Assembly (NCBI RefSeq): GCF_003651225.1
Contig: NZ_RCDB01000001.1
Coordinates: 310,001-374,000, forward strand
Direction of reading: 5' to 3'
DNA: 64,000 bases
Origin: Microbacterium telephonicum
GTDB lineage: Bacteria; Actinomycetota; Actinomycetes; Actinomycetales; Microbacteriaceae
This document shows, piece after piece, positions 4,866-54,579 of the stretch. Position 1 is the first letter of the stretch; the number at the start of each line of letters is the position of its first letter. Made by a program: the position numbers and the translations under genes. Under the pieces are notes generated by a model, which had not been told where the DNA came from, did not search any database, and saw only the letters and a list, made by a program, of their open reading frames with translations.

Positions 4866-5689
4866 CCGGCGCGCCCATCGTCGTCGCCGTCGGCGCCGCC
4901 AGCCACACAGGACTGCGCCGCCGCGTCAACGAGGACTCGTACCTCGCCGAGGCGCCGCTGTTCCTCGTCGCCGACGGCATGGGCGGCCACGAGGCCGGGG
5001 ATCGGGCCAGCGCCGCCGTCGTCGCCGAGTTCGCCGCCCTTGCGGGCCGCGACAGTCTCGACGTCGACGAGGTGCGCCGGGCGCTGCGCCGCGCCCGCGA
5101 CCGGGTCGCCACGATCGGCGGGGCGGGGCGCGCGGCCGGCACCACACTGTCGGGGGTGGTCGTCGCCGACGTCGACGGCGCCGGGTACTGGCTGACGGTG
5201 AACGTCGGAGATTCCCGCACCTACCGGCTCTCGCGCGGGATGCTCGAGCAGATCAGCGTCGACCATTCGGTCGTGCAGGAACTGGTGGACGCCGGCCTGC
5301 TCGCCGCCGCGGCGGCGGCATCCGACAGTCGCCGCAACGAGATCACGCGCGCGATCGGCGCCGGCAGCGACGGGAAGGCGGACTACTCGCTCGTGCCCGC
5401 CGAGCCCGGCGACCGCATCCTCGTGTGCAGCGACGGACTGTCGGGGGAGCTCTCGGCGGCGCGGCTGCGCGTCGTGCTCGCCGAGGAATCCGACCCGCAG
5501 GCGGCCGCGACCCGCCTCATCCACGAGGCGCTCGTCAGCGGCGGGCGGGACAACATCACGGCCGTCGTGGTCGACGCGCTGCACGTGGCGGGACAGGACG
5601 ACCTGTACGACACGGCGCCCGCCGGGGCGCGGCGCGCGCCCGACGAAGACACCCGGCCGCGCGCCGGGGCAGGGGGGGATCAGCGATGA
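4862..5689 (+). CDS. PP2C-family serine/threonine phosphatase
   Basis: A 275-residue PPM/PP2C phosphatase that removes phosphate from Ser/Thr residues using two metal ions. Visible motifs are RRRVNEDSY near residue 20, DGMGGHEAGD (Asp38), VNVGDSRTYRL, SDGLSG and GGRDNITAVVV. The catalytic core is intact, with only a short charged C-terminal tail and no membrane segment, so it is probably cytoplasmic. It is the natural counterpart of the kinase three genes downstream. Its GTG start at 4862 sits in a 4-bp overlap with the RDD-FHA gene. Confidence 0.92.
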   Translation: MTGAPIVVAVGAASHTGLRRRVNEDSYLAEAPLFLVADGMGGHEAGDRASAAVVAEFAALAGRDSLDVDEVRRALRRARDRVATIGGAGRAAGTTLSGVVVADVDGAGYWLTVNVGDSRTYRLSRGMLEQISVDHSVVQELVDAGLLAAAAAASDSRRNEITRAIGAGSDGKADYSLVPAEPGDRILVCSDGLSGELSAARLRVVLAEESDPQAAATRLIHEALVSGGRDNITAVVVDALHVAGQDDLYDTAPAGARRAPDEDTRPRAGAGGDQR

Positions 5690-51334: not shown

Positions 51335-52054
51335 ATGACCGTGTCGCGCTTCGTCTCCCTCACCGTCCTCGCCGTCGCCGGCGCGCTCGCCTTCGCGGGA
51401 TGCGCGGCCTCGACCCCGACGCCCGCCGCGACGGGCTCGGCCGGTGGGTCGGCATCCGCGCTGCCGAACCCCGGGACCGACCTCGAGATCGACGCGGCCT
51501 GGCTCGGCGGCACCGCGATCGCGCTCGTGACCACCGGTTCGTCCACGTGCGTGCCGACGGCGACCGACGTCGCCGTGCAGGCCGACGGCAGTCTCGCCGT
51601 CACGCTCGCCGACCCCGAGGCGGCCGCGTGCACGCGCGACCTGGTGCCGCGCGCGACATACGTGGCGCTGCCGGAGGGCGTCGACCCGACGCGTGAACTC
51701 GACATCGTCGTCACGTACAACGGCGCCGTCGACGACACCGACCTCGACGGCTTCACGGGTGCCGCGGCGGCCGAGTTCACGGCATCCGCCGGCTGGGTCG
51801 ACGATGACCTGTTCGCGCTCGTGACCTACGGCTCGTCGTCGTGCGCGCCCGTCGTGGAGAAGGTCGACGTCGCCGGCGCCGGTGTGACCGTGACCTTCGC
51901 GACCCCCGCCGCCGACCAGGTCTGCACCATGGACATGGCCCCGCGCGTGACCCTCGTCACGGCGCCCGGCGCCGAGGATGACAACGCGACCGTGACCCTC
52001 ACCGGCGGTGGCGCCGAGTTCTCGACGCCCGTGACGATCCCGATCGCCGACTGA
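51335..52054 (+). CDS. Lipoprotein with two homologous domains
   Basis: A 239-residue exported lipoprotein. The signal peptide ends in the lipobox AFAGC (Cys23), then a short Thr/Pro/Ala spacer. Two related beta-rich segments follow: residues about 45-135 (IALVTTGSSTCVPTATDV, VPRATYVALP) and about 145-235 (FALVTYGSSSCAPVVEKV, APRVTLVTAP). Each holds a pair of cysteines that could form a disulfide. No family recognised. ATG at 51335 is 6 nt after GAGAAT, suggesting a leaderless mRNA. Confidence 0.82.
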   Translation: MTVSRFVSLTVLAVAGALAFAGCAASTPTPAATGSAGGSASALPNPGTDLEIDAAWLGGTAIALVTTGSSTCVPTATDVAVQADGSLAVTLADPEAAACTRDLVPRATYVALPEGVDPTRELDIVVTYNGAVDDTDLDGFTGAAAAEFTASAGWVDDDLFALVTYGSSSCAPVVEKVDVAGAGVTVTFATPAADQVCTMDMAPRVTLVTAPGAEDDNATVTLTGGGAEFSTPVTIPIAD

Positions 52055-52073
52055 CGGGGGCTCGCAGCCCGCG

Positions 52074-52382
52074 CTCGCCAGTCAGCTCTGGTGGCTTTGC
52101 CGGCGGGCAGGTCGCCATACGTGACTGGTGAGCTGGGTGCTGACCCCGCGACGGCGCGCGCTCACCAGTCAGTTTCGGCGACGTGTCGGTGCGGAAGGTC
52201 GCCACAACCGACTGGTGAGGTCGGCGGCCGCGCCCCGCGCTCGCCAGGCACTTTTGGCGGCTTGCCGGTGTGGGAGGTCGCCACACGTGGCTGGTGAGGC
52301 GCGGCGCTGGGCGTACGTTCTCGCTCCACCGTCAACTTCGGTGACCTGACGGTGCGGTGAGCCGCCCCAATTGACGGGCGAG
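52074..52382. repeat. Left array: four 59-bp palindromic units
   Basis: Units at 52074-52132, 52161-52219, 52240-52298 and 52324-52382 are each exactly 59 bp, with spacers of 28, 20 and 25 bp. Ends are CTCACCAGTCAG and GACTGGTGAG, or variants. In the second unit the arms extend to 22 bp (19 matching) around a 15-nt loop. A shared inner word is AGGTCGCCA. The fourth unit is the most diverged. The following 124 bp (52383-52506) hold no further unit. Confidence 0.9.
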
Positions 52383-52506
52383 GCGCGGAACCGGTTCCGG
52401 TGCGCCCAGGAGGATGTTCCTCCCCAGGCCGGCACGTGGGGGCGACTGTCCACGGATGCGGGAGGCGCGACGCCGCGTGGTCCGTGATCTGGGCACGCTG
52501 TCGGGC

Positions 52507-53535
52507 ATGACCGCCGCCGAGCTTCCCGCGTCCCTGGGTTCCGTGTTCACCGTCGCGGATGCGGCCGCCGCCGGTGTGGCGCGCTCGCGCCTTCGCGCCC
52601 GAGACCTCCGCACGCCGTATCGCGGGGTGCGGATCACGGGTGGGCATCCGCTCTTCGCCCCCGCCGGCGATCCCGACCACGAGGCGCGCCGCGCGGCGAT
52701 GCTCGCACGCGCGGCCGCGCTGCGCGGGGTGATGACCGAGACGCAGTTCTTCACCCACGCCGCCGCCGCGGTCATCTGGGGCTTCCCGCTGCCGGCGTGG
52801 CTGCTCGCCGACGCCCGTCCTCTCGACGTCGGCGTGTTCGCGCCGCTGCGGCATCCGCGTCGTCTCGGGGTAGCGGGCCATCAGGTGCTGCCGGGCCACG
52901 CACATGTGACACGCCATCCCGTCAGCGGCGTGCAGGTGACGACCCCCGCATCGACATGGGTGATGCTCGGCGCACACCTCGGAGTTTGGGACCTGGTCGC
53001 CGCCGGGGATTTCGTCGTGCGAGAGCCGATGTTCGGCGGTGACGACGGCTCGCTCGCGACGATCGCGCAGCTCGAATGCCTGGCCGGCGCCGGTCGCCGC
53101 GTCGGCGTGAAACGGTTGCGCGAGGCGCTGCCCCTCATCCGCACACGCAGCGCCTCGGCCACCGAGACGCGTTGCCGACTGGTGCTGACCGGCGCAGGAC
53201 TGCCCGAACCGCAGCTCAATCACGAGCTTCGCGACCCGTCCGGGATGCTGCTCGCCGTGCTCGACCTCGCGTATCCCGAGCGCCGCGTCGCCGTCGAGTA
53301 CGAGGGCGCACACCACCTGCTCGACTCCGTGCAATGGAGCAAGGACATCACCCGCTACGAGATGCTCGCCGCGCTCGGGTGGACCGTCATCCGGGTCACG
53401 AGCGCGCAGCTGCACGGCGACGCCGCCGGAGTGGTCGCGCGGGTGCGCCGCGCCCTCGCCGCCCGCCCGGATGCTGCTTCGCCCGTCACTTTCGGCGACG
53501 TGCGCCGCCCGCGCGTCACCACGACTGACTGGTGA
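52507..53535 (+). CDS. Vsr/DUF559-type endonuclease-like protein with AbiEi-like N-terminus
   Basis: A 342-residue protein. The N-terminus (SVFTVADAAAAGVARSRLRARDL, PYRGVRI) resembles the winged-helix start of AbiEi-type antitoxins. The middle is of unknown fold. The C-terminal 100 residues carry a very-short-patch-repair/DUF559 nuclease core (LDLAYPERRVAVEYEGAHH, DITRYEMLAALGWTVIRVT). The last 19 codons, ending TTTDW-stop, are formed by a 59-bp palindromic unit. Four units lie on each side counting that one. ATG at 52507 matches the conserved start; an in-frame ATG at 52414 would add 31 residues. Substrate and role unknown. Confidence 0.8.
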   Translation: MTAAELPASLGSVFTVADAAAAGVARSRLRARDLRTPYRGVRITGGHPLFAPAGDPDHEARRAAMLARAAALRGVMTETQFFTHAAAAVIWGFPLPAWLLADARPLDVGVFAPLRHPRRLGVAGHQVLPGHAHVTRHPVSGVQVTTPASTWVMLGAHLGVWDLVAAGDFVVREPMFGGDDGSLATIAQLECLAGAGRRVGVKRLREALPLIRTRSASATETRCRLVLTGAGLPEPQLNHELRDPSGMLLAVLDLAYPERRVAVEYEGAHHLLDSVQWSKDITRYEMLAALGWTVIRVTSAQLHGDAAGVVARVRRALAARPDAASPVTFGDVRRPRVTTTDW

Positions 53536-53790
53536 GCGGAGACGCGCCGCGGGCGCGCGCCTTCGCTCACCAGTCAGTTGTGGCGGCGACGAAGGGCCTG
53601 GGGTCGCCCGTTCTGACCGGTGAGCGTCGTGGGGCCAGGCCCGGTGCTTCGGCAGCCAGAATTGGTGGCCTGGAGCGCCCGAGCGTCGCCGCAACCGACT
53701 GGTGAGCGGCGAGGCGCCGCGGGGGAGGGCCTTCGGCAGGCAGTTCTGGTGATGGCGAGGGGCGTGAGGTCGCCGGAACTGACTGGTGAG
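53478..53790. repeat. Right array: four 59-bp palindromic units
   Basis: Units at 53478-53536 (inside the endonuclease gene end), 53566-53624, 53648-53706 and 53732-53790, again each exactly 59 bp, with spacers of 29, 23 and 25 bp. The right ends, GACTGGTGAG, are best conserved. Left ends vary (CTCACCAG, TTCGCCCG, TTCGGCAG). All eight units in both arrays have the same orientation. No gene lies between 53536 and 53908. Confidence 0.9.
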
Positions 53791-53847
53791 CGAAGGCGGC
53801 GCGGAGGCCGCAGGCGGGCGGGTGGATGCGGGAGGTGTAAATAATTC

Positions 53848-53897
53848 TTGACATCGGGCGCCGGGCGGGCGTAGCGTCGTGTCAAAGATTTCTGACA
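53848..53897 (+). promoter_or_regulatory. Promoter and operator of the membrane protein/XRE module
   Basis: A consensus -35 TTGACA (53848-53853) and -10 TAGCGT (53872-53877) are separated by 18 bp. TGTCAAAGATTTCTGACA (53880-53897) is an inverted repeat across the start point and shares TGACA with the -35. It is a candidate autoregulatory site for the XRE protein encoded two genes on. Confidence 0.65.
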
Positions 53898-53908
53898 CGG
53901 GGTGGGTC

Positions 53909-54340
53909 ATGGGGTACGCGGAACGCAACGTCTGGTCGGGTCTGGTGGCGAGCGCCGTGGGGGTCGCGGTGTACGTCGCGATCGTCGCGCCGCAGCTGTC
54001 CACCACGCCGGTCGACGACATCGCCTGGCAGTGGCCGCTGCTGTGGTCGCTCGTCGGGGCGATCGCCGGGGCCATCGTGCTCAGCGTCCTGTGGGGCATC
54101 GCGGCCGGGATGCGCGACCCGCACGAGCGCGCGCAGACCGACGTGCGCGACGTCGACATCGAGCGGATGGGGAGCCGCGTGGGCTACGCGTTCACGGCGA
54201 TCGGCGGCGTCGGCGCCCTCGTGCTGTCGATGCTCGAAGCGCACTGGTTCTGGATCGGCAACGCGCTGTTCGTCGGCTTCTTCCTGTCGGCGTTCGTCGG
54301 CGGGGTCGCTCAGCTGATCGCCTACCGGCGGGGGCTGTGA
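53909..54340 (+). CDS. Four-helix membrane protein of an XRE-regulated pair
   Basis: A 143-residue protein with four predicted membrane helices (about 8-28, 42-66, 95-112, 117-136) and a charged loop DPHERAQTDVRDVDIERMG between helices 2 and 3. This is the layout of small membrane proteins (DUF2178-like) commonly paired with YozG-type HTH regulators. ATG at 53909 is preferred; an in-frame GTG at 53879 would lie upstream of the expected transcription start. The stop overlaps the next ATG by one base (TGATG). Confidence 0.82.
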   Translation: MGYAERNVWSGLVASAVGVAVYVAIVAPQLSTTPVDDIAWQWPLLWSLVGAIAGAIVLSVLWGIAAGMRDPHERAQTDVRDVDIERMGSRVGYAFTAIGGVGALVLSMLEAHWFWIGNALFVGFFLSAFVGGVAQLIAYRRGL

Positions 54341-54579
54341 TGGTGCGGCCGCCGACGCGGGTCGTGAACCGGCTGCGCGAGCTGCGCGACGCGCACGGAC
54401 TCACGCAGGCCGAGGTCGCGGGCCGGGTCGGGGTCACCCGGCAGACGCTCATCGCGATCGAGCAGGGCAAGTACTCGCCGACGCTCGAGCTCGCCTTCCA
54501 GCTCGCCCACGTGCTGGGCGTGCCGTTGGAGGAGGCGTTCCGCTACGACGCCCCCGCACCGGACGGAGCGGCGTCGTGA
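54340..54579 (+). CDS. XRE-family transcriptional regulator
   Basis: A 79-residue single-domain HTH protein of the Cro/YozG type: NRLRELRDAHGLTQAEVAGR, VGVTRQTLIAIEQGKYSPTLELA, and a short tail VPLEEAFRYDAP. It likely represses its own operon through the palindrome at 53880-53897. Coupled to the membrane protein by a TGATG junction and to the following oxidoreductase by a GTGA overlap, so the three genes form one unit. Confidence 0.9.
   Translation: MVRPPTRVVNRLRELRDAHGLTQAEVAGRVGVTRQTLIAIEQGKYSPTLELAFQLAHVLGVPLEEAFRYDAPAPDGAAS

Follow-up and report, generated by a model that had tools for sequence, protein, structure and literature searches.

Multiple palindromes gathered around a lone nuclease gene recall REP elements and their RAYT transposases, and a locus in the actinobacterium Microbacterium telephonicum raises the question whether an enzyme of another kind could occupy the RAYT-like role. 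RAYTs are Y1 (HUH) tyrosine transposases related to IS200/IS605 that cleave their palindrome in single-stranded form, and REP palindromes bear a GTAG tag at one end. The window analysed here, a stretch of 64,000 nucleotides, harbors a gene for a protein with a predicted Vsr/DUF559-type nuclease fold and an AbiEi-like N-terminus, surrounded by eight short palindromic units. With a probability of about one half, gene and units form a single REP/RAYT-like two-part element with an unrelated enzyme. The features of the locus are as follows.

52074..52132, + strand: palindromic unit 1 (59 bp), 19 bp past the stop codon of the upstream lipoprotein-like gene
52161..52219, + strand: palindromic unit 2, with the best arms (19/22)
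52240..52298, + strand: palindromic unit 3
52324..52382, + strand: palindromic unit 4
52507..53535, + strand: nuclease gene, predicted to encode an AbiEi-like N-terminal module (model residues 1-212) and a Vsr/EDxHD endonuclease fold (215-322)
53478..53536, + strand: palindromic unit 5, overlapping the 3' end of the nuclease gene and providing its stop codon
53566..53624, + strand: palindromic unit 6
53648..53706, + strand: palindromic unit 7
53732..53790, + strand: palindromic unit 8

The original prediction described eight imperfect palindromes of exactly 59 bp, and each of them indeed ends 58 positions after its start. Unit 2 has 22-bp arms, complementary at 19/22 positions, around a 15-nt loop, and the predicted spacing of 20-29 bp is borne out by gaps of 28, 20 and 25 bp in the upstream group and 29, 23 and 25 bp in the downstream group. 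A single orientation is likewise found, with the forward score exceeding the reverse score in 8/8 units, though the units are near-symmetric. The arrangement of four units on each side of the gene holds with one correction: unit 5 overlaps the gene, encoding its final 19 codons, the first of them partially, together with the TGA, and the protein tail that it encodes is largely missing from the nine aligned homologues. The eight units share 20 invariant columns and have the ends CTC or TTC / GAG, which vary by flavour. A leave-one-out profile scan of both strands of the window scored six units at 33-48 and the best match elsewhere at 11.5; the units at 52324 and 53648 were scanned one base off register and align after a 1-base shift. 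Rfam returned two matches in 51500-54500, both sub-threshold.

The coding sequence probably spans 52507-53535 (342 aa). This start is preferred because many homologues have an ATG aligned there; an alternative longer start at 52414 would give 373 aa. Searched against Pfam at E up to 10, the protein matched MTES_1575, DUF559, AbiEi_4 and, weakly, two other families; the AbiEi_4 match had 17.6 bits, under its cut-off of 25, and no Y1 transposase was listed. A structure model derived from 60 sequences (mean pLDDT 92.5, pTM 0.88) agrees with the predicted combination of domains. Using VIA-align, model residues 1-212 resemble AbiEi (6y8q; Z 10.2, 179 aligned, rmsd 6.6), the N-terminal fold also resembles 1zel (Z 7.9), and residues ~215-322 resemble I-Bth0305I (Z 12.3), 3hrl (Z 11.7) and Vsr (Z 10.5). 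The fold assignment is based on these Z-scores and a weak profile match to 3hrl (E 0.0033), profile matches to PDB sequences being weak in general; Foldseek on the model gave nothing below E 0.001 and ranked mitoribosomal proteins first. The VIA-align listing for the model contained no tyrosine transposase, which by itself is no proof of absence. S217, E220, R224, E264, H270 and D280 are identical in 60/60 aligned sequences, and position 253 is D or E; we take the conserved acidic and histidine residues to be catalytic, constituting a putative active site. A DUF1814 nucleotidyltransferase toxin was absent among the five scanned window neighbours (the lipoprotein-like gene, a 153-aa ORF, HTH_3, PLD and a dehydrogenase); neighbour scans at other loci covered four cases.

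The notion that this gene family might usually occur without palindromes is contradicted by its homologous loci, 48/74 of which have matching palindromes on both sides, compared with 2/144 same-sized windows elsewhere in those loci (Fisher test) and 25/728 mispaired flanks. This paired test asks for an upstream and a downstream palindrome with arms agreeing to within 2 of 18 bases. The loci are the best 80 of 275 relatives from a contig scan with ten members, minus six without full flanks, a sample that leans to close relatives; the 80 come from Microbacterium, Curtobacterium, Leucobacter, Frigoribacterium, Occultella, Arthrobacter and others. Palindromes called de novo occur at 1.56/kb within 500 bp of the gene (129 in 82.8 kb) and at 0.21/kb beyond 1 kb (81 in 377.8 kb). 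Family members that share 53% and 43% identity with the window protein occur on two contigs labelled Planococcus and Stenotrophomonas maltophilia (loci L195 and L244), records that are possibly mislabelled or contaminated.

The association is not universal. The paired test fails at 26/74 loci, some of which have one-sided palindromes, and 88/99 genomes of the genus have no match to the unit model of the window, and both observations count against a two-part element. The 11/99 genomes that match include the own genome; among the ten others, units are clear in G062, G098 and G019, and weak or doubtful in seven (G015, G022, G044, G051, G052, G067 and G094). G062, G019 and G098 each have a DUF559 homologue bordered by units of 59 bp whose arms differ from those of the window (CCGCAGTC, C[AC]GCAGTC and CAGCAGTC, respectively; in G098 palindromes were found on one side only), and these loci adjoin a PLD-type gene or sit one gene away from it, as in the window. 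A family member is present at the PLD-gene locus in these three genomes and in G130, G261, G082 and G051, and no match was found in five fetched loci (L124, L125, L126, L129 and L131); L127 stops short of that place. No shared palindrome pair was found at the own paralogue L002, and no palindromes were found at locus L298.

The palindromes differ from locus to locus in step with the protein. Across 46 loci, arm similarity tracks protein identity to a degree reached in 0/2000 permutations, or in 0/1000 by another measure, and the correlation among pairs below 60% protein identity is reached in 1/2000. Above 60% identity, the arms of 22/23 pairs match with a local score of at least 10. L203 and L246 passed the paired test and were excluded before the Mantel tests, as their repeats resemble GC-rich chance. 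Of the Curtobacterium paralogue loci fetched, 13/14 have palindromes; their arms are, for example, GAGCGGGCG, GCGGTCAC, GAACTGCCG or CCGAGGTTCC, not GAGCAGAA. The GAGCAGAA-type orthologue is carried by 22 of 60 Curtobacterium genomes (E<=2.2e-96; next match 1.3e-65), and the other 38 carry paralogues only; in G419 the orthologue is split. Exact-armed GAGCAGAA palindromes, 1-32 per genome, are found in 20/22 genomes with the orthologue. The concern that units might be widespread in relatives lacking the gene proved partly justified: 9/38 genomes without the orthologue have such palindromes (up to 21 copies), and 29/38 have none (20/22 vs 9/38, nominal Fisher p 4e-7, the genomes being related). 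The orphan palindromes in these nine genomes speak against a two-part element. In G418 and G424, which have the orthologue and no GAGCAGAA copies, the orthologue is diverged (65% and 54% identical), with one changed palindrome beside each.

Copies of the resident flavour are dispersed in the genomes that hold the gene: 21, 16, 50, 19, 19 and 31 in six Curtobacterium genomes, against 0 in six others, and for further flavours 35, 24 and 2 copies in three genomes of Microbacterium, against 0 in another seven. Genomes with other flavours thus had no copies. Reversed-pattern controls gave 0 for the Curtobacterium flavour, GAGCAGAA and three-Microbacterium copy counts. The own genome contains a second independent system of gene and palindromes. 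Its flavour, GTGTCACGCGAA, is found at 70 arm sites (<=1 mismatch) vs 5 for the control, and four exact sites surround the own paralogue L003 (C3:195857-196789), the protein of this second system being 36-38% identical. Some dispersed GTGTCACGCGAA sites lie in arrays spaced 64 bp, and this flavour is spread over C1-C4, vs the window unit, which is concentrated on C1. As several systems with different arms share genomes, a bystander role of the gene is unlikely.

The unit of the window is not confined to the nuclease gene either, as a search away from the gene revealed. A covariance model of the eight units found at least 54 distinct unit places in the own genome (3.12 Mb) at E <= 0.1, 8 in the window and 46 elsewhere, with one partial match dropped; the count is a lower bound because 150 of 3926 first-look candidates were scored. 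Exactly 59 bp is the length at 47/54 places, which form 23 clusters of one to eight units, and a simple arm pattern gives 42 matches vs 2 for its reversed form. Contig C1, a third of the genome, carries 17/23 clusters (binomial 6.5e-5); a domain-restricted site was dropped as a general property, since the Curtobacterium copies listed run along contigs. In 20 stretches around clusters, a profile located 41 units in 17 stretches, none well inside a called gene, the gene calls there being crude. Separately, two units at 5019-5152 of locus L185 in G019 lie within a crudely called long gene, against the extragenic pattern. Among gaps of at least 30 bp, 18/19 of those bearing units are convergent or codirectional and 1/19 is divergent, vs 19/62 divergent among gaps without units (nominal p 0.03), and in 18/26 cases the facing stop codon is 7-23 bp away from the unit edge.

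The architecture of the dispersed copies points to what might be recognised. In 49 own units, positions 1-24 and 36-59 carry most of the information and the middle is close to random, and the units of two other Microbacterium genomes (G438 and G374) also have conserved half-sites and a random spacer; as the units were found by profile or pattern, this conservation is inflated, most at the ends. In these three Microbacterium genomes the arms are symmetrically conserved and covariation is not significant, and for this reason recognition as two half-sites in double-stranded DNA is, on sequence grounds, more likely than recognition as a hairpin. The inner arms do covary in three Curtobacterium genomes (149/160, 175/190 and 163/190 pairs; 0/5000 shuffles each), where copies are related and the covarying pairs are not independent events. 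Given this discrepancy between genera, a hairpin was rejected as the common denominator of the units.

This covariation, and the closeness to stop codons, would be expected if the units were ordinary transcription terminators whose likeness stems from common descent or gene conversion, the gene being a bystander; other Curtobacterium genomes also have terminator-like hairpins at the same place, as judged by eye. Such an origin is nevertheless highly improbable, as the arms follow the paralogue and not the host, several flavours share a genome with each beside its own gene, a terminator needs neither a fixed length nor conserved half-sites, and covariation fails to reach significance in the Microbacterium genomes.

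The spacing of the half-sites has a published parallel. According to the available part of PMC7319586, the operator of Rv2827c, an AbiEi-type antitoxin, is built of paired 23-bp repeats separated by 13 bp (59 bp in total), the repeats of AbiEi itself are 3 bp apart, and neither AbiEi nor Rv2827c bound the repeats of the other. The layout of the 49 own units equals this 23-13-23 layout, a comparison made from sequence alone. This geometry would also suit an autoregulatory operator cluster around the gene only, with the dispersed copies as recombination debris. That is very unlikely, however, since the units are found on the downstream side of the gene as well, and exact-armed copies occur by the dozen across chromosomes.

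Comparison with relatives points to turnover. In the nearest relative examined, G130, DNA identity at the window locus is 84.7% and ends at 52055, just past the stop codon and 18 bp before unit 1; the same locus (L205/L123) there carries a different family member with different 59-bp palindromes. The DUF559 proteins of the two are 49% identical, vs 92% for the PLD proteins and 76% for the lipoprotein-like proteins. This suggests that the whole cassette was replaced or has evolved very rapidly. For the gene itself, rapid evolution is evident relative to the PLD gene only, because the lipoprotein-like neighbour is about equally diverged in four relatives (G062, G019, G051 and G261; 46-56% vs 50-52% for the DUF559 protein). 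No clean example of an empty site was found in the relatives. When positions were predicted in G130, 1/15 own C1 stretches could be mapped, with homology beginning at the unit end and the other side being non-homologous. For one Curtobacterium palindrome site, 30 loci were fetched from 66 genomes and 21 inspected by eye: 7 have the palindrome or a loop-less form, 3 an altered form and 11 a different terminator-like hairpin. Because the palindrome-less genomes carry a different hairpin of this kind, insertion is no likelier than replacement or slow divergence, and the sequences at this site show turnover rather than insertion. Hosts may keep altered palindromes as hairpins, perhaps as terminators, as the site suggests. 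Altered palindromes at an orthologous site were seen in L321 (G393), L322 (G401) and L323/L324 (G368 and G436), one with both arms changed symmetrically and one with the loop deleted. Near-identical G374 units on two contigs were rejected as evidence of copying, as both lie at contig ends.

The units could instead be static: the protein would then be a host regulator or chromosome organiser that binds dozens of units and leaves them in place, with a part in nucleoid structure, as a transcription roadblock or in termination. Conserved half-sites with random spacers in dispersed copies are expected under per-copy selection for binding, and the differing spacers fit long-standing selection of this sort at least as well as the recent copying that a two-part element would entail. 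The location of units downstream of genes is consistent with static sites as well, and some Curtobacterium genomes share same-spacer palindromes, presumably at the same places. On the other hand, G130 gives 3 weak matches to the unit model of the window (E<=0.1) despite its closeness, most Curtobacterium genomes without the orthologue are free of exact-armed palindromes, the scarcity of divergent gaps contradicts a promoter regulon, and a nuclease domain with invariant residues would be unnecessary for such a role. Static sites are considered unlikely.

A further possibility is self-recognition or addiction, in which the units titrate or restrain a nuclease that damages invading or own DNA, and are kept because their loss is costly. 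AbiEi modules are parts of toxin-antitoxin systems that autoregulate on inverted repeats, as stated in the available part of PMC7319586, the AbiEi-like module is fused here to a predicted nuclease fold, and conservation across the copies is strong at the recognition positions. Restraint by dosage is difficult to reconcile with orphan units, or with G384, G390, G414 and G428, which have the gene and only 1-2 exact-armed copies, and PADLOC gave no convincing match for three family members (best E 0.0058). This possibility appears quite unlikely.

A two-part element thus remains the preferred reading. The Vsr/DUF559 and AbiEi protein in a RAYT-like role, as originally envisaged, is supported by the flanking association and its generality, the co-divergence of arms and protein, the dispersal of resident flavours, the half-site architecture, the predicted fold and the invariant residues of the putative active site, all computed here. 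We infer that the protein binds the units, cuts DNA and causes the units to spread. The units are taken as recognition sites, and the protein as the cause of their spread or upkeep, because the hallmarks of RAYTs, as given in the available part of PMC2817692, largely recur; these are abundant palindromes that flank the gene, coevolve with it and form arrays beside it, a diverging gene and closeness to stop codons. Among the roles proposed earlier for the units, which were mobilisation substrates, binding sites or a selfish cluster, that of binding site is inferentially the best supported, and the units are probably recognition sites of the protein. By analogy, it is hypothesised that the protein mobilises the units, spreading or maintaining them as RAYTs do for REPs.

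In mechanistic terms, the AbiEi-like module would recognise the 59-bp unit as ~23-bp inverted half-sites held at a fixed distance in double-stranded DNA, and the Vsr/EDxHD domain would cut or nick DNA at or near recognised units. Repair might then copy a unit into new positions or retain it there, chiefly a short way past stop codons, where a unit may be least harmful or act as a terminator. The arrays flanking the gene would mark the source locus, and the dispersed units would be its non-autonomous offspring. The fuller proposition is that, convergently with REP/RAYT, a fusion of an AbiEi repressor with a homing-endonuclease fold writes operator-like palindromes just downstream of genes across actinobacterial genomes, with specificity and sites changing together, sometimes with several independent systems per genome, and with hosts perhaps reusing sites as terminators; this has somewhat less than an even chance of being correct. 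If true, there would be a second, unrelated pairing of enzyme and palindrome beside RAYT/REP, and the spreading of small palindromes downstream of genes would have evolved more than once. The pairing occurs in many flavours and in several actinobacterial genera, it provides a hypothesis of function for a family of "DUF559" proteins, and its many natural pairs of protein and site make recognition and co-divergence directly testable. A literature search judged by titles and the beginnings of abstracts found no description of palindromes with this gene family.

Several known systems resemble parts of the locus. Two candidates were dropped: integron attC sites (59-base elements), which share the length and the position after genes, as the arrays here have ordinary neighbours and a partner other than an integrase; and the RNA repeats of type III toxin-antitoxin systems, as units also lie downstream and are dispersed. 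The C-terminal fold is predicted to be like those of the EDxHD homing endonuclease I-Bth0305I and of Vsr, with conserved acidic and histidine residues. Unlike in homing of the I-Bth0305I type, no intron or intein was noticed, cognate palindromes flank the gene, and it is the repeats that multiply, not the gene. The modelled N-terminal fold is like the AbiEi and Rv2827c antitoxin-repressors, and the layout of the paired inverted repeats is like that described for the Rv2827c promoter (PMC7319586, available part). Unlike in AbiE type IV toxin-antitoxin systems, there is no nucleotidyltransferase partner among the scanned neighbours, and unlike in AbiEi and Rv2827c, a nuclease fold is attached to the module, which faces dozens of sites instead of one promoter.

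In the comparison with REP/RAYT, the differences lie in the parts. The enzyme has an AbiEi module and a Vsr/EDxHD fold, with no Y1/HUH transposase domain found, and the units are ~59 bp of two half-sites and a random spacer, with CTC or TTC / GAG at their ends and no GTAG tag. The hosts are actinobacteria, unlike those of the RAYTs of the 2010 paper, which reports them from gammaproteobacteria only (PMC2817692, available part). The similarities lie in the organisation. As reported for REPtrons in the same part of PMC2817692, the gene is bordered by palindromes that are extragenic and dispersed in the genome, arrays lie near the gene, the flavour is gene-specific, gene presence correlates with copy number, the gene diverges faster than some of its neighbours, and a palindrome lies close to or right after its stop codon. 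Palindromes are also found without the enzyme, as are REP repeats (PMC3733652, available part). No known family tested holds both halves, enzyme and palindromes; by genomic logic alone, the pair falls under the REPtron idea, with the gene delimited by palindromes over-represented in the genome and with enzyme and palindromes coevolving.
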